From positions 1 through 64,000 of the forward strand of contig JAJDUB010000035.1 in assembly GCA_022826885.1 (NCBI GenBank): a DNA stretch of 64,000 nucleotides, in the 5' to 3' direction. Below are positions 37,548 through 52,078 of this stretch, piece by piece (position 1 is the first letter of the stretch; the number at the start of each line of letters is the position of its first letter). The position numbers and the translations under genes are program-made. This stretch comes from Gammaproteobacteria bacterium. Lineage in GTDB: Bacteria; Pseudomonadota; Gammaproteobacteria; Eutrophobiales; Eutrophobiaceae. Below the pieces are notes generated by a model, which was not told the origin of the DNA, ran no database searches, and saw nothing but the letters and a program-made list of their open reading frames with translations.

Positions 37548-37875
37548 ACCGGTGATTTATGGCTTTACTGACGCGCCGCTGTTCCGTTGAATATGTCTTC
37601 CAGTCAGGTACATGAACGGTCATCAACGCCTTGAACAGTTTTCCATGGTTGGGTACTCGCAGGTGCAAGAGTTCATGCGCGATGACAAAGTCCTGAAACC
37701 CCGGTTCCTGTTCAGCCAGGTCGATGGCAAAAGTGACTATCCCGGAGGTCGAGCAGGAACCCCACTTCCTGGTCATAGACCGGACTCGCACGATCCTGGG
37801 ATGAATACCCAGTTGCAGCGCCCAGAAATTGACACGATTACGCAAGACTTGACGTTTCTCTTCACGAATATTCAT
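37519..37875 (-). CDS. YgjP-like (DUF45/M48-type) metallopeptidase, short form
   Basis: A 118-residue zinc peptidase domain of the YgjP/WLM group. The zinc motif HELLH is in '[19 protein letters not shown]', with the third ligand His in 'VPNHG'. '[20 protein letters not shown]' upstream is the family's signature. Usual YgjP proteins are about 170-240 residues, so this is a reduced form lacking the N-terminal part. The start at 37875 (MNIREEKRQ) lies 14 bp inside the end of hsdR, so the two are translationally linked; association of this family with hsdR is seen in other type I loci. Substrate unknown. Confidence 0.82.
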
Positions 37876-40825
37876 CGGTTTCGTTATTGAGCATAATTTT
37901 GAGCATGATCTCGACAATTCGGAGGCGTTCCGCGCCCTCAAGGGCAAGAAGAGGATGATAAAGAGCCGCCCGCAGCCTGCGCTGTTCGTCGGCGTTTAAG
38001 GCTGCGTTCGGAAAGCGCTCCAAAAGCGCTTCCGCCTCCTGGGCCAGTGAGATCGCTTCAACACCGGCCACCTTGAGCGCCCCGTCATTCCTCAGCGTCC
38101 AGTACAGACCAAATGCACGGGTTGTCAGGTCACTGTTTCTCGCGGCTTCAATCGCTTCCTCTTTCTCCTTTGCCAGTTCCGCCAGGCGGTCCAGCGCCGC
38201 GAGACTGGCCGTTTTGTGGTTCTCGAGTGCCTCAATAACCTGTTCAGCACGCTCTTTGAGCGATTGCAGCACAGGCGCCAGGTCCGGGTTGGCATCCATT
38301 TCGGCCTTAAGACCCCGTATGAGGTTGAAGACCTTGGCTTCGTTCGACCCCGGCTCGCGCCGAAGCGCTTCGAGGGTGCGCACGTCAAACGTCACTGTTT
38401 TGAGCAGGTCTCCAAGACCTTCCTGGGTGAGGCTGTCCTGCACCATTTCCCGCGTCTTATTGGCCAGGTCTATATCGGGTTTTGCCTTGAAATCGTAATT
38501 ATTCCTCACCGCGGCATAGAGTTGGGCGAGCCACTTGTACGTTTCAATATGGTCGCGGAGTGTCGGTGAAGGGGACAGTATCTCCCATAAGGCCTCGATC
38601 TCCTTGTAGGCTTCAAAAAACGCCTTGCGCGGCTCCGGTTCCAGGAACCGGCCATAGATAATGTTTTCTAGGCGCTCATCCGCACTGCTGCTCCTCTCGC
38701 CGGTTTCGAGATAGTCAGCCTTCGCCCCGGCAAGCTTATCGAGGAGATTCTCCAGAAGAAGATCAAGGTCTTCGACTACGCCACTGACATCAAACGAGTC
38801 GAACTGCAGCGCCTTCTTCAACTCCCGCAGAACGCCCACAAAGTCGACAACGAGGCCGACGCGCTTGCGCCCCCCCTGCACATCCACGTAGGGACGGTTC
38901 ACGCGTGCAATCGCCTGGAGCAGAACATGGTCGCGCATCGGCTTGTCCAGGTACATGCTATATAGCAGCGGCGCATCATAGCCGGTCAGCAGCTTGTCGG
39001 TAACTATGAGGATCTTCGGGTCCTCGTTCGGCTTCTTGAACATCAGGCGTATGTCCGCCTCACGTTGGGCAGATAGCTGAAGCTCGGCAACGAGTGGCCT
39101 CTTGACGACATCTTCAACATTCTCCGTATAGACTGGTACGGTCCACTCTGGTGGTAACAGTTCATCGAGCGCGCGTTTGTACTTGGCGCAGGCTTCGCGG
39201 TTGACCGCTACCAGGAACGCCTTGTAGCCAAGCGGCGCTACGTTCTCCCTGAAATGGTCTGCGACGAATGCCGCAACCTTTTCTATCCGATCGTCGGCAG
39301 TGAGGAACGTTCGCAGTCCCACGGCCCTCTCCAGGACGCGGTTCAACTCTTCCACGTCGGTGACGCCTTCCATCTCGGCCAGGTCGAAGAACTCCTTGTC
39401 GAGTTGTTCCGTCGGCACCGTCATCTCGCTCGGCGCCATGGTATGGCGTATCGGCAGTGTCGTCTCGTCCTCAATCGACTCGGCTATCGAATACTTGTCA
39501 AGGTAGCCCTGGTCATCATCGGCGCCGAAGATCTTGAAGGTTCCTTCGCCGTGCTCCGTGCGCGCTATCGGCGTACCGGTGAATCCGATGATGGTCGCGT
39601 TCGGCAGCGCGGCCATGAGATACGTACCCAGATCCCTGGCCACCGAACGGTGCGCCTCGTCGATGAACACGTAGATATTGTCTCGGAGGTTGGCGTCCTT
39701 CTCGATGCCCTCGAACTTGTGGATCATCGAGAGGATCAGTCCTCTTTTGTCAGTTGTGAGCAGGTCGCGTAACTCCGCCCTGGAGTTGGCCCGCCAGACG
39801 GCGATGTCCTGCTGCTGCATCTCACCCAGCAGCCGTTCGACCCAGCCCGCAAGCTGGCCTTCCAGTTCCAGGCGGTCCACGACGACAACCACAGTCGGCG
39901 TGTGAAACCCTTCCCTGGCCTCCAGGATCAGGCGGGCGGCAGTGAGCAGCGTGAAGGTCTTGCCGGACCCCTGGGTGTGCCAGACGAGACCGCGACACTT
40001 CACAGGCACGGCACATCGTTCGACGATACGCTGCACCGCGCGGCGCTGGTGCTGGCGCAGCACCGACTTCCGCGTCTCGCCATCCTCTACATAGAAGAGA
40101 ATCCAGTCGCGCAACGTGCGCAGGAAGTCGGTAGGCTCGAAAAATGACTGGACTGCAAACCGGTAGCTGTCCCCGGTTCGTTCCTTCCAGCGCGCCATGA
40201 AGCGGCGCGATATGTTCCAGGTGACGCCGTACCAGTAGTCGAGCAGGTGGGTCACGTTGAAGAGTTGTGCCGACCCCACCAGTTCGGGAGTCTCCAGTTC
40301 ATAGCGCCGCAACTGCGTAATGCCCCGCTCTATGGCGTCGGTGTCCGTCGGGTTCTTATGTTCGACGATAGTGACCGGCACGCCGTTGACCACGAACATC
40401 ACGTCCGCGCGATTGCCCTTGCGGGCGGGTGGCTTGAGCTTCCATTCCCAGGTCACGTGCAGGACGTTCGCCGACGGGTCGTCGAAGTCAACCAGCCGCA
40501 CCTGCCGGTGGCGTTGCTCGGCCTCGTCGTACCATTGCCGCTCGCCGCGCAACCAGGCCAGCATCTTGCGGTTGCCTTCTATGGTCGGCGGCAGCGCCTG
40601 GAGGTTTTCCATCACCGAACGGATAGCGTTGTCTGTCATCCAGGGGTTGAACCGGCGCAGCGCACCTTCGATCTCGCTGTGAAACAACAGCCCGGCTTCG
40701 CCCCCTCTCATGGCAAGGGCATCTGTCGGAGAGAGCGGAGTCCAGCCGATCTCCGCGGCGTGGCGGACCATCGGAAACTGGACGGTTGCCGCTTCAGTGA
40801 TACTGGTGTCAATCACAGGAGGCAC
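37862..40825 (-). CDS. hsdR: Type I restriction enzyme HsdR subunit
   Basis: A 987-residue motor/nuclease subunit that cleaves foreign DNA after translocation. The N-terminal PD-(D/E)xK nuclease has Asp141 and the Glu155-x-Lys157 pair in '[11 protein letters not shown]'. The SF2 translocase has Walker A 'HTQGSGKT' (283-290) and 'DEAH' (389-392), with helicase motif '[20 protein letters not shown]' later. The C-terminus is helical and would contact HsdM. It is separated from hsdM-hsdS by about 7.5 kb of cargo genes, all on the same strand, and starts 157 bp after the DUF3800 gene, so it may have its own promoter. Confidence 0.95.
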
Positions 40826-40982
40826 TCACTGTTTCCAGTATGGCCGACAAAACAGCATTGCATTCTCGTTCCCATTGTGCTATTTTCTGTTCAAAGGTTC
40901 CCCCCTGATGACAAGAGTGCCAAGGGTGCTCTCTTCAGTAATGGAGTAGTCGGGGGGGTCGTTTTTTTGGTCATTTGGTTCA

Positions 40983-41648
40983 TCAGTAATACTGTTGTGA
41001 CTTGGTGTGGAAAAGTTCAAGCTCGTTACGAAGCGCAGGCTTGATAAGGTCGTACCAAACTCTTTCTCCTGTTTGCCATTTCCGGAAAATCGCCCAGCAG
41101 CAGTAATCTGCAATCTGCAGTCCATAGTGGGACCGGGATTGATGATGCAAAATGCGATATCTCAATCCCGATGGCAGCATGTCATGTAATACAGTGCTCA
41201 CAGCACTTTCGATAGCCGCTCGCTTTTTATTTACCGGAATTTTATCCGTAATAACAATTACCTTCTCCACCTTACCTGTGTCCAGTTCTGCAGGTAATAT
41301 CAACTTCAGAAGATGGCCTAAAATTTCCGGGTAAAAATGCTTATCTTCCTGTAACTTCGGCTCTACTTTGGCCTTCTCAACGACCAAGCAATCAATATGA
41401 ATGCTGTCAATATGACTGGAAATCAGGTTGAAGATTCGGCCGCGAACATTTTTGTTATCGCGATAGCAGTGAAAATACTCAATATCCAGGCCATATTCGA
41501 GACAATGATGCTTGTAATCATCCATAGACATAGCAGCAGGAAACGGGCGTATCATGCCTACACTGGTCAACACGAAATAGCGGGTTCCAGTGGCGCTGAA
41601 GTCGAAGTTGCCAGCCTCGTCGAGAAAGATGTAGGCGCAGCGGTTCAT
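40983..41648 (-). CDS. DUF3800 domain protein
   Basis: A 221-residue protein of the DUF3800 family, thought to have an RNase H-like fold. Visible hallmarks are 'AYIFLDEAGNFDF' at the N-terminus (Asp10, Glu11) and 'SHYGLQIADYCCWAIFRKWQ' near the C-terminus, with acidic residues that could form a nuclease-type site. Its ATG overlaps the stop of the upstream AlbA_2 remnant (ATGA), so it probably depends on translation of that remnant. DUF3800 genes are common in defence and mobile regions. Confidence 0.82.
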   Translation of the reverse strand: MNRCAYIFLDEAGNFDFSATGTRYFVLTSVGMIRPFPAAMSMDDYKHHCLEYGLDIEYFHCYRDNKNVRGRIFNLISSHIDSIHIDCLVVEKAKVEPKLQEDKHFYPEILGHLLKLILPAELDTGKVEKVIVITDKIPVNKKRAAIESAVSTVLHDMLPSGLRYRILHHQSRSHYGLQIADYCCWAIFRKWQTGERVWYDLIKPALRNELELFHTKSQQYY

Positions 41649-41914
41649 TTCATCGGCACTTTCAAAAACCTGACTGGTGACAGAGACAATCCTGGATAAG
41701 CCAGAATGAGCCAGAATAAGACGGAATAAGCCTCATAGGCGTTTCCAACGCGCACCCCGGCCTGCGATACACTGAATAGTACTTGCCCGCCGTTCTGGTT
41801 CGGGAAGGCGCAGACTGTCTTGGCCGCCTCGCGGCGCGTCCGGGTAGTTTCCTTGAACTCCAACGTTTCGGATTCGCCGGATGCTGCCAGAGCTGCTAGC
41901 TGTTCAAGTGTCAA
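41645..41914 (-). pseudogene. Deleted AlbA_2 (Schlafen-like) domain gene remnant
   Basis: An 89-codon ORF starting TTG. Its first about 60 residues ('ASGESETLEFKETTRTRREA', 'AAKTVCAFPNQNGGQVLF') closely match the N-terminus of the full-length AlbA_2 gene at 43756-45171. It then runs into unrelated sequence. At the break, 41742-41762 matches DNA at the 3' end of the full gene (43783-43803) at 20 of 21 positions but in another reading frame, so the remnant looks like a copy that lost its middle by recombination. It ends in an ATGA overlap with DUF3800, which may have kept the ORF open. Confidence 0.75.
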
Positions 41915-41941
41915 GTCTGCGACCTCACGGTGCCTGATGAG

Positions 41942-43759
41942 TCATGACTGTTCTCCCTGTTGAAGGATTTTGCGCCACATATCGAAGGCTTCGGGGAGAT
42001 ACATGGTCGGATCTTCGAGTGGCAGTTCAAACTGATATATCTTTTTTTCATCCGCAGCCTTCTGCCATCTTCGCAGGTGCCTCTCTACATCCTTCTCGCA
42101 GTAATACTTAGTGCGCTCGTCAACTGGATCACCATCCTGCTTCGGCCATTTGGGGTGAGCCATGTAGAGCCGGATGGGGACGCTGATGACGTAGGGGGTC
42201 CCCTGTTGGCGGAATCGTTCGATTGCTTTGGCATCGATACCATGATGAGAACCTGACACTGCATCGGGCAGTGGTGGAGGGGCGTTGTCGATCTCTGGCT
42301 TCCACACGGCCTCCAGGGTCCGGTCGATTTCTTTTTGCTCCGTCACCGACCAACTCAAGGATTCGGACTTCACGGAAGGAATCTCCGTCTCTGCACGAGG
42401 CGGGGCGTGCCGAATCGATTTCGGGTCCATGCTCTCCTCCCAGTCCTGCGGTTGCCCCTCGGAGATCATGGTCTTGAGGCATGCCCTAACCACGTTCTCA
42501 ACGTCGGCGAGTTGGGTAACGCGCCGCTCCTTTTCCTCCGGCGTCAGATTGTCCTGGGTATTGCCATGCACAATATCCGAGCGGTGATCGTAGAACGCCT
42601 TAATCAAGTCTCTTGTTTGTTCCCTCTCTGGGTGCGAATCCGCGAAATACCATGATCCTCTTCTCGAGGTGATCTTCCGTTGGTTCCAGTCCTCACCTTC
42701 TCCCATGAATAGGGCTTCCAGAGCGATGCACACGTCAATTACCTTATCCTCATGCTCCATCCTTTCGGTGCTGTCTCGCAGGCGGCGGAGGGCCAGATTC
42801 AGCACACGTTGTGTCTGTTCTGGTAGGGTGGCATATTTGCCTATTAACTCGATAAGTTCAGCGTTGTTTATGGGCCGTTGAGTTGAAGTACGTCGAGAAG
42901 CTAATATGGGCAATAGGATCTGCGAAGTACAACTAGATAGAGGTCGTGTTGTGTGGAAGAACGGTAGGGTTGCAGCGACGGGGCCGGGCGTGAAATGAGT
43001 ATTGCCAAAGATGTGCAATCCCTTACCCCATACCAAACCGAGAATGTCCACTAATCGAGGTATTGGGATCCCATGCTCAAACCGGGCCATAGTTGGCACG
43101 GGTTGTAATAGAGTACTTACATGTCGCTTAAAATCGTTTGCCTCAAGCCCCCTACGCTCGAAGCTTTTGACTTCAAGTGCGCATACGTCGCCAACAGGAT
43201 CTGTTGGCCATCCAGAGTTAAAGTTTGTATCCCGTATCGAAGGATCTGCATTTATCTTCTGCAAAGCTTCTTGATATGGGAGAAGGGTACAGTAGTCGTC
43301 CAATAGTATTGCATTCGATACTAACGCTCCCTTCAGCAGATAGAAGCTATGGACCTTGATCATACCGTGGGCCGCGAACTCCATGGCGTATGTCGCTGCT
43401 GTCTCGACGCCATGCCCAGCGGCGGCTAATAGCAGTTTGCAAGTGGCGGTCAGAGCATCGAGCTGGACTTCACCCTGGTTCCCCCACTCATCCCCGGTAG
43501 AAACGGTGTCCGCTGGCGGCTGCGTTTGGCGTCCCGTATCCCAATGAACTTCGACCCAGTTCTGTACATCTTGGAAGGCAGGCACAGCGGCTAACCACCT
43601 ATCCTTTCTCTGGAGCATGTTCTTTACTGCCCCTTCAAGTTGCCAACTGATCAGCGGAATGCCGGTGACTGGGACATTGCCTCCCGAGGGAGTTCCAAAC
43701 TGTGCCAAAGCGTGTCCCAGCAGTTCTTCGATGCTGTCGAGACTTGATGTTTGCTTCAC
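41942..43759 (-). CDS. ApeA-like HEPN domain protein, candidate RNase effector
   Basis: A 605-residue protein of no assigned family name. The middle region has a HEPN-type core like the ApeA C-terminal domain: 'VIDVCIALEALFMGEGEDW', then 'REQTRDLIKAFYDHRSDIVH' with the R-x4-H motif at about residues 393-398. HEPN domains with this motif are usually metal-independent RNases. The N-terminal 330 and C-terminal 190 residues are not recognised. The preferred start is GTG at 43759, giving a GTGA overlap with the upstream AlbA_2 gene; an ATG at 43789 would add ten residues. Translational coupling suggests it acts with the AlbA_2 protein. Confidence 0.78.
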   Translation of the reverse strand: MKQTSSLDSIEELLGHALAQFGTPSGGNVPVTGIPLISWQLEGAVKNMLQRKDRWLAAVPAFQDVQNWVEVHWDTGRQTQPPADTVSTGDEWGNQGEVQLDALTATCKLLLAAAGHGVETAATYAMEFAAHGMIKVHSFYLLKGALVSNAILLDDYCTLLPYQEALQKINADPSIRDTNFNSGWPTDPVGDVCALEVKSFERRGLEANDFKRHVSTLLQPVPTMARFEHGIPIPRLVDILGLVWGKGLHIFGNTHFTPGPVAATLPFFHTTRPLSSCTSQILLPILASRRTSTQRPINNAELIELIGKYATLPEQTQRVLNLALRRLRDSTERMEHEDKVIDVCIALEALFMGEGEDWNQRKITSRRGSWYFADSHPEREQTRDLIKAFYDHRSDIVHGNTQDNLTPEEKERRVTQLADVENVVRACLKTMISEGQPQDWEESMDPKSIRHAPPRAETEIPSVKSESLSWSVTEQKEIDRTLEAVWKPEIDNAPPPLPDAVSGSHHGIDAKAIERFRQQGTPYVISVPIRLYMAHPKWPKQDGDPVDERTKYYCEKDVERHLRRWQKAADEKKIYQFELPLEDPTMYLPEAFDMWRKILQQGEQS

Positions 43760-45171
43760 GTGGGTGCCACCTTCTTGCTGCATTTCCAACGCGCACTCCG
43801 GCCATGTCCTATGGTTGCGATCAAACCTCTACCCTTGAGTATAGCGAGGTCTTCCCGCAATCGTCGCTCGTTAGTATGTGGTCCTAGCTGAGCGCGGATC
43901 TCGCGCAGCGCCAAACCATCATCAGCACGGTCCAACAGAGAGAGAATAGCCTCTTGTCGTTTTATCGCCCTGCTTCCAGTAAGCTGTTGCGGCACGAATT
44001 GGCCATGCCTGAAGCGTACAGCTACCCAACTGCCGGCATCTTCGATCTCAAGAGGAGGAAGCCCCGCTTCATTTACCAATTCTGCCATCTTGAGGGTCCC
44101 GACACCCCGCTCCTCAATGATCCCGCGCCGGTAGAAAGTGTGGGCAATCAATGGATTCCAAGGCTTGGATGCGTGCGGTTCGAACAGGTTCTCAGGCGTC
44201 ATACCGAAATGTAACGATCCGGGGGAGGTCACTTCCAGACGGTCGGCGTAGATGGCCACCCCTATTGACCCGCCACTATGAATTGAGTAGTCGCGGTGGC
44301 AAAGGGCATTAGCCAGCGCTTCCCGCGTCGCAAGAGGCGGATAGAGTGGTTCGTCGATACGCTGTATGCGATCTGGCTCGAACCGAGCGGCTATGGGGAG
44401 GCTATCCCGCAGGAATCGCTCAGCATGGGACAGCAGTGAGAAGGCGTTGCCAAGGAACTTCCGATTGTCCAGAAATTCCATCTTGTCGATACCCCGAAAA
44501 CGGGCAACGCGTAACTTACACTGCGGTATCTCGATCCCAAGACGTTCCTCCTTACCGAACAGCACCGCCGCTGCCCGAAGCAATACACCGTCCTGCAATA
44601 GTCCAAGCCCACGCAGCAAATCGACCGGTTCCCGACTCGGAGGCTCATCTAGGCGACCGATCCTTACAGCCTCGGCAACTGTATTTCGAATTTCCACCAT
44701 GTCCAGGTCATCCACCGACCACCCGGCAGCGGGCTGGTTCTCCCAGCGCTGTTCCTTGTGAACGCGCTCCAGGAGTATCCGGTTGTACTCATCAGCCGAC
44801 ATTTTAAGCGTTGTGTTACCGACTCGGCGGTAGGCGCTACCGCGGTAAGTATATGGTCTTGATATCCCCTGGTCCGTACTGACCAAGATTATTTCACGGT
44901 CGCCGCTCAAAGGAACCCGCTCGACCGTCGGAAACGCCAGAGGGTCGATTTGTCGAAGCTTGGCGCTCAGCTCCTCAATAGTGCGCTCGCTGACCTGCTG
45001 CCCAACAACGATTCCGGCTGGCGTTACGCCGAATAGCACTTGCCCGCCTTGCTGGTTCAGGAAAGCGCATACCGTCTTGGCCGCCTCGCGGCGCGTTCCG
45101 GTCGTCTCCTTGAATTCCAGCATTTCGGATTCGCCGGATGCTACTAGGGCTAATAGTTGGCCAGTGGTCAT
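43756..45171 (-). CDS. Schlafen/AlbA_2 - HATPase-type ATP-binding protein
   Basis: A 471-residue protein with an N-terminal AlbA_2 (AAA_4/Schlafen-like) domain (about 1-140: 'ESEMLEFKETTGTRREAAK', 'NQQGGQVLFGVTPAGIVVGQ', 'RGSAYRRVGNTT'), a HATPase_c_4-type ATP-binding domain (about 230-390: 'ATREALANALCHRDYSIHSG', 'DRLEVTSPGSLHFGMTP', 'IIEERGVGTLKM') and a C-terminal winged helix (about 405-465). Such proteins are often called putative transcriptional regulators, and their relatives recur in defence loci. It is coupled to the HEPN gene downstream by GTGA. Confidence 0.88.
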   Translation of the reverse strand: MTTGQLLALVASGESEMLEFKETTGTRREAAKTVCAFLNQQGGQVLFGVTPAGIVVGQQVSERTIEELSAKLRQIDPLAFPTVERVPLSGDREIILVSTDQGISRPYTYRGSAYRRVGNTTLKMSADEYNRILLERVHKEQRWENQPAAGWSVDDLDMVEIRNTVAEAVRIGRLDEPPSREPVDLLRGLGLLQDGVLLRAAAVLFGKEERLGIEIPQCKLRVARFRGIDKMEFLDNRKFLGNAFSLLSHAERFLRDSLPIAARFEPDRIQRIDEPLYPPLATREALANALCHRDYSIHSGGSIGVAIYADRLEVTSPGSLHFGMTPENLFEPHASKPWNPLIAHTFYRRGIIEERGVGTLKMAELVNEAGLPPLEIEDAGSWVAVRFRHGQFVPQQLTGSRAIKRQEAILSLLDRADDGLALREIRAQLGPHTNERRLREDLAILKGRGLIATIGHGRSARWKCSKKVAPT

Positions 45172-45199
45172 AAACGCGTCCCACAGTTCTGATCTGGTA

Positions 45200-46648
45200 T
45201 CATGTTTTCAGAGTCATTCCAAAGAATTGGGATAGGCCCCCGTAAAGCTTAGACAGATTAAAGTTGTTTTCTACTATAGACAGGTCTACTTTTCGAGCGT
45301 GGTCGGTAACATGAAATACAGAATTTCGATAGATTTTGAGGTTCCGCAATCTAGCTGTATCTATCCATTCTTTAAGATTTGAATTGAGTACCTGTGGATT
45401 GTCTCGCACGATCTGAGCATACATCCGCAGTGGCTCATACAAAATCGCCGTGCTCACACGGGTTGGAGCTACAGCCTCGTCGGCTCGTTGTAGACCGATA
45501 TTCTCAGGAGTGTAGCCTATGGAAGCTGCGATGGTACGCTGGCTGCGCGTTTTGACAAAGGTAGCCAGATCTTCTTGTGTGGCGCTTCTTTCAGGTTGGT
45601 GCTGCCATTCGTTCAACATGATTTCATTCCACAAAACATCGACAGTCATTAACAATTCTCTGTAGTACTCGATATTCTGTCTGGCATGTTCAGCAGCCCG
45701 TCCATCACAATTAGATTCCAGTTCCCCTGAACCTATCAGTGATAACATCCCGATTTCCAACATAGGGGTTTGTATTGCGTCCTCATCTATCGAGAATTGC
45801 TGTTCCGGTCCGGATGGACAAACTTGGTTCAGGCATTCACTGAGAATGCGCATGGCGCGCCCTTGGGACCGGCTTGGACTCCATGAAGTCACCTCCTTGG
45901 TGATCTGTTCCAAGCTCTGCTGCTGTTCGCGGCACAGCGATTCCAATAAGTCTGCTACATGAGCGCAGCCCACCGTGTCGTGATGCAGTTCCATTCTTTC
46001 CAGGTTCATTAATCTGAATAAAACTGTGCAAATCAGTCTTTGATGTTCCGATAGACAGAGCAATTTTTCTACGCCTAAACCGAATAGCTTCTGCTTAAGC
46101 CGCATTAAGTATGCGTCGATTTGATGTTGGGCTTCTGGAGCCCTGTTGTACGATCCTTGATAGGACAGGAAACTCAGTTCCGAGGTACCTCTCGATAGGT
46201 TTGGATGAAGAAATGGGTCACGGAAATCGTGCAATCTTGCCGCCCATTCATTGTTATTATCAATATAGACAGAGAGAGCATCGTCACACAAGGTATCTGA
46301 TAGACGGCACGCCTTTTGGTAGTACTCAAATTCGGCATCAAGGAGTGCCAAGTACACTTTCAATGGTGCAAACGTTGCTATGCCAAGTAGAGTTCGATTC
46401 CATCGATTGTCTTCTAATCCTTGATCCTTCAACATCCGCTGTTGGACGCATGCGAGCCAATCGTCATCCTGATGCGTGTGGCTAGATTGGCAAGCTTCGG
46501 TTGCTCTTATCAAATGCATCATGTTCTTGGCGGCAATTTTACGAATCCCTTCCAGAATGACCGTCCTGTGGTAGAACAGATTCCGATAAAGGTCTACATC
46601 TGTCTTGAGATCGGATAAGTCCATTCGACCGATGTCTATCGACTCCAT
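45200..46648 (-). CDS. Unrecognised helical protein with two R-x4-H (HEPN-like) motifs
   Basis: A 482-residue, helix-rich, Cys/His-containing protein that I do not recognise as a whole. Two HEPN-like motifs are visible: 'HDFRDPFLHPN' (Arg143-His148) and 'KIYRNSVFHVTD' (Arg441-His446), each following a long predicted helix. This suggests a duplicated HEPN fold or one HEPN domain plus a degenerate copy. It starts one base after the stop of the 42-codon HsdS-tail gene and ends 28 bp before the AlbA_2 gene. A nuclease role is an inference from the motifs and the neighbourhood only. Confidence 0.6.
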   Translation of the reverse strand: MESIDIGRMDLSDLKTDVDLYRNLFYHRTVILEGIRKIAAKNMMHLIRATEACQSSHTHQDDDWLACVQQRMLKDQGLEDNRWNRTLLGIATFAPLKVYLALLDAEFEYYQKACRLSDTLCDDALSVYIDNNNEWAARLHDFRDPFLHPNLSRGTSELSFLSYQGSYNRAPEAQHQIDAYLMRLKQKLFGLGVEKLLCLSEHQRLICTVLFRLMNLERMELHHDTVGCAHVADLLESLCREQQQSLEQITKEVTSWSPSRSQGRAMRILSECLNQVCPSGPEQQFSIDEDAIQTPMLEIGMLSLIGSGELESNCDGRAAEHARQNIEYYRELLMTVDVLWNEIMLNEWQHQPERSATQEDLATFVKTRSQRTIAASIGYTPENIGLQRADEAVAPTRVSTAILYEPLRMYAQIVRDNPQVLNSNLKEWIDTARLRNLKIYRNSVFHVTDHARKVDLSIVENNFNLSKLYGGLSQFFGMTLKT

Positions 46649-46649
46649 C

Positions 46650-46778
46650 TTACTTACCGAACCTCTGAGATTGTGCCGCTAAATCCAACTCCTCCACCCG
46701 AATTTTCCCCGTCATAAGCTTCTGCAACAGCGCCTTGAACAGATTCTCCAGCAGGGCTGTAATTTGTTCAAGGGTCAT
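46650..46778 (-). CDS. 42-residue HsdS C-terminal tail-like small protein
   Basis: A small ORF starting at ATG 46778 in an ATGA overlap with the protease stop codon and ending one base before the next gene. Residues 8-33 ('LLENLFKALLQKLMTGKIR' then 'VEELDL') match the last helix of the HsdS encoded at 48324 ('[18 protein letters not shown]') at 17 of 26 positions. That tail belongs to the conserved region of HsdS that contacts HsdM. The first nine codons resemble the start of the AlbA_2 remnant (MTLEQ). It may be a scar of a former hsdS or a functional interface peptide; tight spacing on both sides favours continued translation. Confidence 0.55.
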   Translation of the reverse strand: MTLEQITALLENLFKALLQKLMTGKIRVEELDLAAQSQRFGK

Positions 46779-47677
46779 AGGTCAGTCGTTGCTGTGACTC
46801 TGCTTACGTGTGGAGAATCTGACAGTGCCATCTCAATCGTATCGTTGACCGTATCCAGAGGGACCACAATCCCAATGTCGGCGTTTTCTCCGCTAGCAGG
46901 GTTGAGTTGGGTACCGCTAACCATCCCGATCAAGGCGTTCTTGGTGAATTGCTGAGTTCCCTTGATGCTTATCGGCTGTGGCTTCGTAATGACAGGTCCG
47001 CCGCTGTTTCCACCGAATACAGAGCCATCAATCAAGAATGTTCGGGCATTGCCTTTTAAGTAAGGTTGTATCTGGGCCAACACTCCATGACGTACCATCG
47101 GCCAATTCTTTACATCTTCATAAAATCCTGTCGGGAAACCTACAACAAACACATCATCTCCTTCACTTAACGACTTACCGAGCGAACTCTCCGTATTCAT
47201 CAACGCCTTTGTCATATGCGTGTGTGGCGCAAACCCCCATGATTCAAGGTCTTGCCAGTTTTCGTAATGAGTTGGTGCTGTTGTAACTGCAACATCAACT
47301 GCCGCATCCTCCGGGGTGTACGCGCGATAGGCAATAGGGCCAAGTTTTGAACAACGAGCCATCCATTCCCTGTGTCTTGTCCAATAATGTCCAATTGGAT
47401 AGCCGATGGAGCTTCTTCCTGATCCCGGAGATGCTTCATTCACTTCGAGATATGTACGCTTATCAGGTCCAATTTGATTGGCTTCTATATCATCTATTAC
47501 GTGGGCACAAGTGACGTACCAAAGCCGCCATGGTTCGTCAGGTGTGTGGACACTCGGGTCGTGATCGTTGTAGTCGTCTGGACGAGCGTACACGAACCCT
47601 GTTCCCCGGACAGAACCTGAGTCGTTCCTTATCTTCAATGCTGACTGAACAAATTCTGGCCGTATCGATGCCATCAA
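46775..47677 (-). CDS. Trypsin-like serine protease
   Basis: A 300-residue chymotrypsin-fold protease without signal peptide or membrane helix, so cytoplasmic. The catalytic triad is visible: His59 in 'WYVTCAHVIDD', Asp128 in 'AAVDVAVTT', and Ser225 in 'FGGNSGGPVITK'. It shares ATGA overlaps with the HEPN-like gene upstream and with the HsdS-tail gene downstream. Stand-alone cytoplasmic trypsin-like proteases in such operons are known from bacterial conflict systems, where they are thought to cleave and activate or destroy a partner. The natural substrate here could be one of the co-encoded proteins. Confidence 0.88.
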   Translation of the reverse strand: MMASIRPEFVQSALKIRNDSGSVRGTGFVYARPDDYNDHDPSVHTPDEPWRLWYVTCAHVIDDIEANQIGPDKRTYLEVNEASPGSGRSSIGYPIGHYWTRHREWMARCSKLGPIAYRAYTPEDAAVDVAVTTAPTHYENWQDLESWGFAPHTHMTKALMNTESSLGKSLSEGDDVFVVGFPTGFYEDVKNWPMVRHGVLAQIQPYLKGNARTFLIDGSVFGGNSGGPVITKPQPISIKGTQQFTKNALIGMVSGTQLNPASGENADIGIVVPLDTVNDTIEMALSDSPHVSRVTATTDL

Positions 47678-48279
47678 TCACCCCCCATGATGGATCCATC
47701 TTCATTGAAATGAGCCGTAGCCAAGTGTTCCCCTCGGCTACTTCCTACACGTGTAGCTTCCCGCCAGCCATCAAAGGTGTTTTCTCCAATCATTTGGATG
47801 ATCTCTGCATGGATAATCACAAGATCTGGGATTACCAGCCCTGCTATGCCATGAACGAAGCCTACTGCCCTATGTTCTCCCTTTCTTCCTACCATCCAGT
47901 ACTTCCGATCTGGATGACACATTTCTTCATCCAGATATTTAAGCAGGTTATCGATTGTATTTGGCGTATTCTTTTCCACAAATTTCTTGATTCTCGCCTG
48001 ACTCTTCGTCCCAAGGTTTCGATAGTTCTTCTCCGCTTCGTGCTTCTTAGTGATGGGATGTCCTTCACTTTTTGCCAGTGCCTTCAAAGCTAACTCGAAT
48101 GCAAGTCCTGTACATACGTGTGCCACGTTCAGTTCATTGGTGTCGGTCTCGATATCATTCCGTCCACGTCCACTTATTTGGTCTTTTTCTAGAGCAGTCT
48201 TCATCCATACTTGGCTGTCTCCCAGCCAGTTGCTAATTGGTGCTCGATCCTCGATGTTTATCGTTCTTTTGAAGTTCAT
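47674..48279 (-). CDS. HEPN-fold-like protein coupled to the protease
   Basis: A 201-residue protein with the HEPN-like pattern 'HVCTGLAFELALKALAKSEG' (about 54-73) followed by 'KKHEAEKNYRNLG', which recalls the helix pair of HEPN and AbiV-like proteins. An R-x5-H arrangement ('HRAVGFVHG', Arg137-His143) could be the active site, but this is weaker than in the two larger HEPN candidates. Its stop overlaps the protease start by ATGA, and it starts 44 bp after hsdS. It is the first cargo gene. Confidence 0.6.
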   Translation of the reverse strand: MNFKRTINIEDRAPISNWLGDSQVWMKTALEKDQISGRGRNDIETDTNELNVAHVCTGLAFELALKALAKSEGHPITKKHEAEKNYRNLGTKSQARIKKFVEKNTPNTIDNLLKYLDEEMCHPDRKYWMVGRKGEHRAVGFVHGIAGLVIPDLVIIHAEIIQMIGENTFDGWREATRVGSSRGEHLATAHFNEDGSIMGGD

Positions 48280-48323
48280 AATTTTTCTTGCTGATGTGGA
48301 TGCTTATTTACCATCGATCCCCT

Positions 48324-49586
48324 TCAGCTTCGTAATTGCAGTTTTGAAAAGTCAAGATCACCCGCGCGAATCTCACCTATCATCAGCTTGTGCAGCAGAG
48401 CCTTAAACAGTTCCTCTAGTACGGCCCCCTTGCGCCGATGTAGGTCTATCTTGCGATCAATGGCGTCGAGGATGGTAACGATATTCTGTTGCTCGTCTAT
48501 GGTGGGCAGGGGAAAAAGGACCGTACGGAGCTTGGTCGCATTGATGTTAGCTTGTCCGATGGCGCGGCTCGCGAGCTTCTTGATTTCCTCCTGTGTTCTC
48601 GGCCAGTTCATGAAGTAATTGAGAAATTCCGGGATGCATCGGTTTGTATCAACCACAAGACGCACGAGATAGGATGCAAAAACAGCGGGTCTATCGTTTT
48701 CAATAATCGCCATCCGCCCGACCAGATCGATGCTGTTTGTGCGATTGAATAGTAGATCGCCAGGGTTTACCCGGAACCTGTGATAGCTCTCCAAATCTAG
48801 TTCGACGAACTGAAGATTTCGGTAATGTACCTTTCCATCTTCCTGACAGTTCATTCGTAGAATCGGATAGGTACCGGACGTTCGACCCCGCACTGATAGG
48901 CCGTATTGCGTGGTCGTAGCCACATCACCGATTGCCGTAATTTCCCAACTCTCCGGCACTGGTCCGATCTCAGTCTCTTTCTGCTGCTCATCCCGCAAGC
49001 CGCGCGTGAATATCGTTCGCATAGCGGCGTGCTTCAATTCCTGCGCGGTCGCAACACTCTGGTTCTGTGCTTTGATTGCGTCGCGTACCCTACCGAGCGC
49101 TACACTGATCGCCTGTTGCTCACTTAACGGGGGCTGAGGCACGTCCAGCCCTGCTAGGCGGCTGCGTGACAGGTTAGGGATCGTAGTTTTGTTGCCCGCG
49201 CCCTCAAAGAGGCCGAGCTGCGTAAAAGCGGATTGCAGGAAATATACGTAGAAGCGCGGCTCGACATCAGGGGCGATTGGTCGTAGTCTATGCAAGTGAT
49301 TCTGAAACGACATCGTTTCCACTTCACCATTCCAGATTGCCGCACGCCCAATCTCGCCGCCCTCGCAAACGAGCAGGTCGCCTTGCCTCAGAAGCTTAGC
49401 AGGTAGTTCGCGATCAGGAATCGACATCTCGTCAACGGACGACAGGTCGACCTCGTCCCAGAGGACGTTGGATGTTCGCAGGAAAGGTGTCTTGTCAACT
49501 CCTTTACGTGCAGCGGCGGACATCGTTTTGCCAGCGCCGATCTCAAATAACTCCCCGAGCGGGTGCCACGTCCACGCTTTGTTCAT
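48324..49586 (-). CDS. hsdS: Type I restriction-modification specificity subunit HsdS
   Basis: A 420-residue HsdS with two target-recognition domains separated by long helices. TRD1 covers about 1-150, the central conserved region about 150-200 ('[20 protein letters not shown]'), TRD2 about 210-350, and the distal conserved region to the end ('[20 protein letters not shown]', '[18 protein letters not shown]'). It sets the DNA sequence recognised by the HsdM methylase and HsdR nuclease. Its start overlaps the hsdM stop by ATGA. Confidence 0.95.
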
Positions 49587-51418
49587 TCTAGGTTCACCAG
49601 CATCTTTGCTAACTGCGCGTCAATCTCACGTGCCTCTTCATCGAGACGCTGCATGTCGGCGATGATCTCCGATATAGGACGCTGAGCTACGTCGTCAGTC
49701 TGCCCCACCCACCGACTCGGGCTGAGGTTATAGTCGGCTTCCTCCACCTGTTCTCGGGTGATGACGGCAACCTCGCCATCGACCGGTTCACCCTTCAGGA
49801 AGGTAGCCGCCAACGAGCGAATATCCTCCCCCGGAATGTAGTTCTTGGGACGTCCCTTACGAACGCGCCGGCTAGCGTTGAGGAGCACGATCCTGTCCTT
49901 GCGCACCGGTAGTTTGCGCTTCGACAGCACGACGATGATTCCGGCGGCGCTGGTGTTATAGAACAGGTTGTCTGGCAACAGGATCACGCCGTCTATCAGG
50001 TCCCGGTCCACGAACCACTTGCGGATATTGCGCTCTCTATCCGACTGCTTGCTGCCGGAGCCGCGGGTCACCGCACCAGTGTCCAGCACTACCGCAGCCC
50101 GTCCGCGCTCGTTCAGGCAGGCCAGGGTGTGCTGGAGCCAGGCCCAGTCTCCCTTGCCGGTGGTGACGCCGCCAGCGGTGCGGAAGCGGTCGAACGGATC
50201 GTTCTCAAATATGTCCGGGTTGAAATCTTGGTTCCACATAGGGTTGGCGACCACGATGTCGTGGGCTGTGATCCGGCCTGCGGTGTCCTTGAACTTCGGG
50301 TTGATCATGGTGTCACCGCGCTCGATTCTAATATCCATGTCGTGGATAATCGCATTCATGTGGGCGACGGCGTAGCTATCGGCTTGCAGTTCCTGCCCGT
50401 AGAGCTTGAGGGGAACGCGGCTGATGGGGTCGGTTTCGCGGGCGACCAGTTGCAGCTTGATAAGCAGCCCAGCGGAACCGCAGGCGTAATCGTGGCAGTC
50501 CTCGCCGGGCTTCGGGCGCATCAGGTGCGCCATCAGGAAGCCCACTTCCGTCGGGGTGAAGTACTCGCCGGCGCTCTGGCCGGAGCCTTCGGCGAACATG
50601 CGTAGCAGGTACTCGTAGGCGCGACCGAGGAAGTCGGGTTGCACGTCAGCGAGGCCGAGTCGGTACCTCGGATCGGAGACGGTTTCCACCACGGCGGCGA
50701 GTCGGGCCGGGTTGATATCGCGCTCACCGTTGCGCTCGGAAGCGAAGTCCACAAGGTCGATCACTCCTGAGAGTGACGGGTTTTGGCGAACCACGGCGCG
50801 CACGGCGCGGGTCAGGTGTTCGCCAATGTCGCTCGGTCGTGTGCTCCGTTTCCTTTCGTCCAAGGGCCAGTCATGGGTTTCACGCCCGCTGATGACCGCC
50901 CAGCGCGCCTCGGGGGGCAGGTAGAAGCGCAGGAGACCGTGGTCAGACTCCGCAATCTCCAGTGCCATTGCACGATCGCCATATTCTTCGGCGAGGCGAT
51001 CGATCTCGTCATCGAAGACATCCGACAGCCGTTTGAGGAAGAGAAGTGGCAGCAGGTAGTCCTTGAATTTGGCCGCATCCTTCTCTCCGCGGATGGAGCA
51101 AGCCGCGTCCCACAGCATCTGCTCCATGGGCTTCGTCGAGGGAGTGGTCGAGTGTCTTCTTGCTCGTCGTTGTGTCACCCGTGCCGCCGCGTTGGCTGGC
51201 TCCGAGATTGCTGTCTCGTCGAGACCTGCGCTGACAGCCAACGCAGCGATTGCCTCTTTTGCTGCCTTCTGTGGCGCCGTTGAGCCTCCTTCCCAGCGAT
51301 TCACTGTGGTGAAGGAAACGCCTAGTCGTTCAGCCAGTTGCTCCTGCGTGAGATCGAGTTTCGCGCGTATGGCGCGTAAAGCAGCCGGAATGTCAGAAAT
51401 ATTTGTAATATATGCCAT
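49583..51418 (-). CDS. hsdM: HTH-fused type I DNA methyltransferase HsdM
   Basis: A 611-residue N6-adenine methylase with an XRE-type HTH at its N-terminus (about 10-60: '[20 protein letters not shown]', '[10 protein letters not shown]'), absent from classical HsdM. The methylase part has the HsdM N-terminal helical domain (about 95-260), '[20 protein letters not shown]', motif I 'DYACGSAG' (310-317; DPxCGSGG in most) and motif IV 'NPMW' (392-395; NPPF/Y in most). Direct and inverted repeats span its own start codon, so the HTH may let HsdM repress the operon. It is the first gene of the 14-kb minus-strand locus. Confidence 0.93.
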
Positions 51419-51437
51419 GTTTGCAATATAGCATATG
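51402..51437. promoter_or_regulatory. Repeats over the hsdM start, possible autoregulatory operator
   Basis: TTTGTAATATA (51402-51412) and TTTGCAATATA (51420-51430) form an 18-bp-spaced direct repeat, and ATATGC (51410-51415) is mirrored by GCATAT (51431-51436). The hsdM start codon (51416-51418) lies between the arms. The N-terminal HTH of HsdM is a candidate binder. Confidence 0.45.
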
Positions 51438-51510
51438 TGTTTGGTGTTTGTCTACTTTTTTTCAGGGACAATCCTTGGAGGGCCGAAAAAGGCTTCCAGA
51501 AGAAGAAACC

Positions 51511-51535
51511 GGGGGCAGATTTCAAATCTGTCCCC
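51511..51535. repeat. Family B palindrome at the right border of the restriction locus
   Basis: GGGGGCAGATTTCAAATCTGTCCCC, a near-perfect palindrome between hsdM and the VOC gene. A matching copy lies at 36325, beyond the other end of the restriction locus. Confidence 0.85.
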
Positions 51536-51586
51536 TGACACATGATTTACGCAGGAATTACGAAGGTTGCTAGTAGAGCAGTTCTT

Positions 51587-52078
51587 TCAGCTTGCGCTGC
51601 CGCCCCACACCTCGCGGGCCTTCTCATAGACCCCCTGGTCATAAGAGAACTCCACCATATTGCCTTCGGGATCGCGCACAAAACAGATGTAGCCGATCCG
51701 TTTCGGCATCTGTTGCGGGCCGAGGATCAGGCAACCGGCGTCCTTCGCTTTGGCGGCTATGTCATCGACGGTCTGTTTATCCGGCACCTCGATGCCGATA
51801 TGGTTGAACGGTCCCAGGGTAGGATGCTCAACAGGGGCGAACGGATCGTGGCCGGGGAAAAACTGGCCCAGCACCAGGATAAAAGGGCTGTCGCTCTGAC
51901 TCTTGTCTCCGAGCCAGGCCGAATATCCGTCCTCGTCCTCTTCCCGGTCCAGCAGGGTCAGGTGCGTGAACTCCTCGTACCAGGCGATTACCTTGTCGAT
52001 GTCCTTTACATGCAGGGCCAGGTGCGTCCACGTGGGTTGCGTGGGCCGAAGCTCATGCTGAGGCTGGTCGGCGCCCAT
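51587..52078 (-). CDS. VOC (glyoxalase/extradiol dioxygenase-fold) family protein
   Basis: A 163-residue protein with two beta-alpha-beta3 modules of the VOC fold. Likely metal ligands are His19 in 'TWTHLALHVKDIDKVIAWYE', His in 'GPFNHIGIEVPDK', and Glu in 'DPEGNMVEFSYDQG'. It could be a glyoxalase, dioxygenase or epimerase. The start is 2 bp after the TonB receptor stop, so the two form an operon, which hints at a role in processing the imported compound. Confidence 0.88.
   Translation of the reverse strand: MGADQPQHELRPTQPTWTHLALHVKDIDKVIAWYEEFTHLTLLDREEDEDGYSAWLGDKSQSDSPFILVLGQFFPGHDPFAPVEHPTLGPFNHIGIEVPDKQTVDDIAAKAKDAGCLILGPQQMPKRIGYICFVRDPEGNMVEFSYDQGVYEKAREVWGGSAS

Follow-up and report, generated by a model that had tools for sequence, protein, structure and literature searches.

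What is a 42-codon open reading frame doing in the middle of a type I restriction locus, when its product begins like one gene of that locus and ends like another? The ORF occupies positions 46650..46778 (-) of the window, by which we mean the whole 64,000-nucleotide stretch of DNA analyzed here, and encodes MTLEQITALLENLFKALLQKLMTGKIRVEELDLAAQSQRFGK. Its start overlaps the stop codon of a trypsin-like protease gene (46775..47677, (-)) through an ATGA, and its own stop codon is separated by a 1-bp gap from the ATG of a gene for a 482-residue protein (45200..46648, (-)). Both of these tight junctions are present as the preliminary description of the locus had reported them. It had proposed a free copy of the local HsdS tail that competes for HsdM, a bait sensed by the neighboring protease or the scar of a lost hsdS.

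We compared the product with known protein families. The 42-residue sequence matches PADLOC type I specificity profiles, 14 of them at E below 0.1; the best is PDLC03134 (Specificity_I; E 9e-10, profile positions 388–417 of 428), and the HsdS encoded nearby (48324..49586, (-)) has the same best profile. Because of this match and of a tblastn value of 3.9e-5 for the product within its own genome, we consider the resemblance to HsdS to be beyond chance. What the ORF holds is the conserved C-terminal tail helix of HsdS, with an intact LFKALLxKLMTGxIRV motif. The histidine of LLH, found in 10 of 10 compared tails, is a glutamine in the ORF. Target recognition domains (PF01420) are absent from the product, for which a search of Pfam with all 42 residues gave no matches.

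The tail is not a copy of the one carried by the present hsdS, as had been claimed. The count of 17 identities over 26 positions on which that claim rested is correct, and 17 of 28 residues agree over a longer stretch, but the hsdS of a sister species in the same genus (G005) is far closer. Codons 8–35 of the ORF (46674..46757, (-)) share 71 of 84 bases (84.5%) with the sister hsdS tail, against 56 of 84 (66.7%) with the local one. Against a set of nine further HsdS tails, to which the local tail belongs, the same 84 bases score 54.8–76.2%, the closest being that of G160 at 76%, and five HsdS tails match at 21–22 of 28 residues. The local hsdS is ruled out as the source on the strength of the far closer sister tail. 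Judged by its sequence, the ORF tail derives from another hsdS and behaves like an orthologue of the sister gene, at an identity near the divergence of the flanking orthologues (82–91% at the nucleotide level). Because the tail has the divergence of vertically inherited neighbors, the hsdS now at the locus would be the newcomer.

The arrangement of the sister locus is consistent with this view. The orthologous locus in G005 (contig C45, L017) reads hsdM, hsdS, a gene for a 249-residue protein, AlbA_2 and hsdR, and past hsdR both it and the window continue with the same alcohol dehydrogenase and UbiD-type genes. Between the two loci, the products of hsdR (37862..40825, (-)), hsdM (49583..51418, (-)) and the AlbA_2 gene (SLFN_AlbA_2 and HATPase_c_4; 43756..45171, (-)), which we read as resident, are 92.6%, 88.5% and 79.7% identical, and the genes are 90.7%, 85.8% and 81.6% identical at the nucleotide level. 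HsdS, which we read as an incoming allele, reaches only 35.2% amino acid identity. Within the ORF, an 83-bp island (46675–46757) retains 71 of 83 bases (85.5%) of the sister hsdS tail in the same order and on the same strand. It is also syntenic, lying between the blocks of hsdM (49701–51462) and AlbA_2 (43916–45136) that are shared with the sister. DNA similarity to the sister hsdM ends near position 49701, with some 118 bases remaining to the hsdM stop codon; from this break, the 3′ end of hsdM seems to have been brought in with the new hsdS, so that the HsdM C terminus (49583–49701, (-)) seems to have been exchanged together with hsdS.

The first eight codons of the ORF (MTLEQITA; 46755..46778, (-)) resemble an AlbA_2-type gene start. 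They share 20 of 24 bases with the AlbA_2 start of a congener (G004, L044), whose protein begins MTIDQITAL, compared with MTLEQITAL in the ORF. That gene occupies the corresponding chromosomal site, flanked as in the window by the alcohol dehydrogenase and TonB-receptor genes. Among 860 gene starts, taken from ORFs of 100 codons or more in the retrieved sequences, the ORF start is best matched by the G004 gene (19 of 24 without the start codon), followed by the local AlbA_2 gene (15 of 24, likewise counted) and then by a next best score of 13; a short AlbA_2 remnant in the window, scored apart, reaches 17. It was this remnant that had been noticed at first. The reported agreement of 20 of 26 bases (bases 2–27) is correct, but the remnant is not the best match and gives way as parent to the G004 gene, which agrees at 22 of 27. 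The SLFN_AlbA_2 domain is absent from the ORF product, whose likeness to AlbA_2 is confined to the first eight codons.

The change of parent within the ORF is abrupt. Over nucleotides 1–24, AlbA_2 agrees at 20 of 24 bases and hsdS at 6 of 24, whereas over nucleotides 22–105 AlbA_2 falls to 26 of 84 and hsdS rises to 71 of 84; at the switch, the two parents have GC-CT/GCC-TG in common. The last 24 nucleotides (QSQRFGK and the stop codon; 46650..46673, (-)) match neither parent in the relatives, and we take them to be the original 3′ end of the hsdS that was lost. Two parents, a sharp switch from AlbA_2 to hsdS at nucleotides 22–24 and pieces collinear with the orthologous locus mark the ORF as the scar of a recombination, in strong support of the earlier suggestion of a chimera with an AlbA_2 start.

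We conclude that the ORF is very probably the joint left when the resident hsdS was replaced, with an AlbA_2 start fused to the old hsdS tail. The idea of a scar of a lost hsdS is thus strongly supported, with the refinement that the lost gene was the resident, ancestral hsdS of the locus. Before the event, the locus would have read hsdM, old hsdS, 482-residue gene, AlbA_2 and hsdR, differing from the sister locus in the gene after hsdS. The incoming segment would have come from a type I locus related to this one and have comprised an hsdM 3′ end, the new hsdS, a gene for a 201-residue protein with no family assigned (47674..48279, (-)), the protease gene and the start of an AlbA_2 gene. Its left joint would lie near the hsdM 3′ end, at about 49701, and its right joint where the donor AlbA_2 start and the old hsdS tail share a GCC-TG microhomology. 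The outcome would be eight AlbA_2 codons in frame with 34 hsdS codons, ahead of the resident 482-residue gene. The ATGA overlap would then be the protease/AlbA_2 junction of the donor, and the 1-bp gap the junction between the resident hsdS and the 482-residue gene; because both junctions would predate the joint, the compact spacing was presumably inherited rather than selected. A single replacement event would be the simplest history. Neither a donor locus, with the protease gene overlapping an AlbA_2 start, nor a resident locus in which the 482-residue gene immediately follows hsdS was found, and it is therefore from the observed homologies, identities, synteny and breakpoint position that we infer the two junctions, the arrangement of the donor and the order of events.

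A scar may still be put to use, and the alternative that fares best is that it was kept as a bridge coupling translation of the protease to that of the 482-residue protein. We regard this as rather unlikely; it is compatible with replacement of the resident hsdS, and the probabilities of the two overlap. The ATGA overlap upstream and the 1-bp gap downstream suit such a bridge, as does an AGAGG Shine–Dalgarno-like stretch for the 482-residue gene that lies inside the ORF (46650..46673) with a duplex energy of −6.5 kcal/mol, compared with +0.4 kcal/mol and no Shine–Dalgarno sequence for the ORF itself. Translation of the ORF, if any, would occur by reinitiation after the protease, and its only likely effect would be to carry ribosomes on to the 482-residue gene. 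Against a selected bridge, any in-frame remnant would serve. Relatives of the 482-residue gene, which would allow a comparison, were looked for in plasmids, in 274 genomes of the class and by pattern scans, and none were found; nor did the protease gene yield close relatives for a test of conservation. The 482-residue protein, which we read as resident cargo once located downstream of the lost hsdS, matches no Pfam, NCBIfam or PADLOC family. Near its C terminus is an RNSVFH motif, which is reminiscent of the RX4-6H motifs of HEPN proteins.

That a donor locus supplied the finished fusion, with an hsdS tail that was never the resident's, is improbable. Genes are often exchanged in this slot, and such an origin would suit a donor that was not found. 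However, the identity of the tail to the sister hsdS (84.5–85.5%) is near the divergence of the neighboring genes and above that to any other tail, and the tail stands in its syntenic place.

We consider it very improbable that the ORF encodes a functional peptide, whose free tail helix of HsdS would bind HsdM and restrain formation of the M2S methylase or of the restriction complex. Equally little credence attaches to the more elaborate version in which the fusion peptide, translated by reinitiation after the protease, was co-opted, its HsdS helix reducing restriction through binding to HsdM until the defense cargo is expressed. The intact tail motif and the compact operon position would favor a peptide, and the frame is still open, with 6 of the 9 changes on the ORF lineage falling on third positions; the open frame and these changes make coding constraint on the tail possible. 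The sister lineage has 4 changes, bringing the total to 13, which is too few to gauge relaxed selection, and a codon-position test in the manner of dN/dS gave the same pattern as hsdM, hsdR and AlbA_2 on only these 13 differences. Against a peptide, the ORF lacks a Shine–Dalgarno sequence, the LLH histidine common to the compared tails is replaced in it, and its tail comes from an hsdS other than the present partner of HsdM, whose own C-terminal end seems to have been exchanged along with hsdS.

The search for recurrence points the same way. An exact degenerate pattern for a second fusion (MTLEQ...LFK[A/T]LL) found none in frame across 84,980 species; its five hits were all out of frame, three of them in Clostridia in another coding frame and two in EAL-type DDFGTGYS genes, and the notion of a recurrent family of such peptides was dropped. 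A stricter pattern had no matches in viral contigs, and phage records had none to the ORF. All other matches to the HsdS tail, in relatives and in samples of the class and phylum, sit in open frames of 440–468 codons, that is, in full-length hsdS genes. The genomes searched thus hold no independent locus with the same short ORF, such as a conserved small regulatory peptide would be expected to have. With a tail from a different hsdS, inherited spacing and no second fusion, the proposed HsdM decoy that tunes restriction is left unsupported. As for a cleavable sensor peptide for the protease, adjacency alone speaks for it, this adjacency is explained by the joint and no locus was found with a relative of the protease beside such an ORF, which leaves the bait idea unsupported and scarcely credible.

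The surrounding island has been rearranged elsewhere as well. Relative to the congener G002, in which window positions 37548–51594 correspond to a gap of ~19 bp in L042 with adjoining flanks, the type I island amounts to an insertion of 14 kb. In the interval from the alcohol dehydrogenase to the TonB-receptor genes, G003 and G006 have no matches to the island, and G004 has little more than AlbA_2, with a trace of the gene that follows hsdR. A second AlbA_2 fragment in the window (41645–41914, (-)) joins ~50 codons of its own AlbA_2 5′ end to AlbA_2 3′-end DNA, with positions 41696–41762 matching the 3′ end and downstream sequence of the G004 AlbA_2 gene at 92.5%. This fragment is an internal-deletion scar, and the island is demonstrably scarred and prone to such events.

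The cargo between hsdS and hsdR consists of the 201-residue gene, the trypsin-like protease gene, the 482-residue orphan, AlbA_2, a gene for a 615-residue protein and a DUF3800 gene (40983–41648, (-)). The protease (PF13365), which we read as incoming cargo together with the 201-residue gene, is close to the PADLOC candidate PDC-S45 (E 1.5e-17). In another genome (G271; L019, 8769–9431), the gene directly after hsdS has a start (CAYIFLDEAGNFDFS) very similar to that of the DUF3800 gene, and this likeness suggests a shared accessory slot.

In kind, the ORF is a vestigial hsdS fragment, which is known in principle. Partial hsdS genes and hsdS pseudogenes occur in type I restriction loci, for example those of pneumococci with their hsdS pseudogenes (PMC7557576), where, as here, a non-functional piece of hsdS lies beside an intact hsdS in an often-recombining locus. 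Unlike those pseudogenes, the ORF retains only the last 34 codons, without a target recognition domain and behind a foreign start, and is no reservoir of specificity. A stand-alone hsdS tail ORF after rearrangement is also found on the Thermus thermophilus plasmids pTthSNM7-6c and pTthSNM6-6b, where the remnant (WP_244345567.1) is annotated as 'hypothetical protein'; it follows a transposase-like gene, with more of hsdS upstream in another frame, whereas here an AlbA_2 start is joined to the hsdS tail. The gap between hsdS and hsdR has been proposed as a recombination hotspot for defense genes (PMC12255303). The RptR island of EPEC likewise has accessory genes in this interval, although its cargo is DarTG2 (PMC12255303) rather than the set of genes present here.

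The ORF is most likely a fossil of defense-island shuffling rather than a new regulatory peptide, and we infer that it lacks function. As a scar, it serves as a marker of how hsdS, the end of hsdM and defense cargo were exchanged jointly, probably in one event, and the joint can be read in it with a precision of a few bases. The ORF carries a warning, too, that short, tightly packed ORFs in defense operons can be debris of rearrangement, with spacing inherited from their parent junctions.
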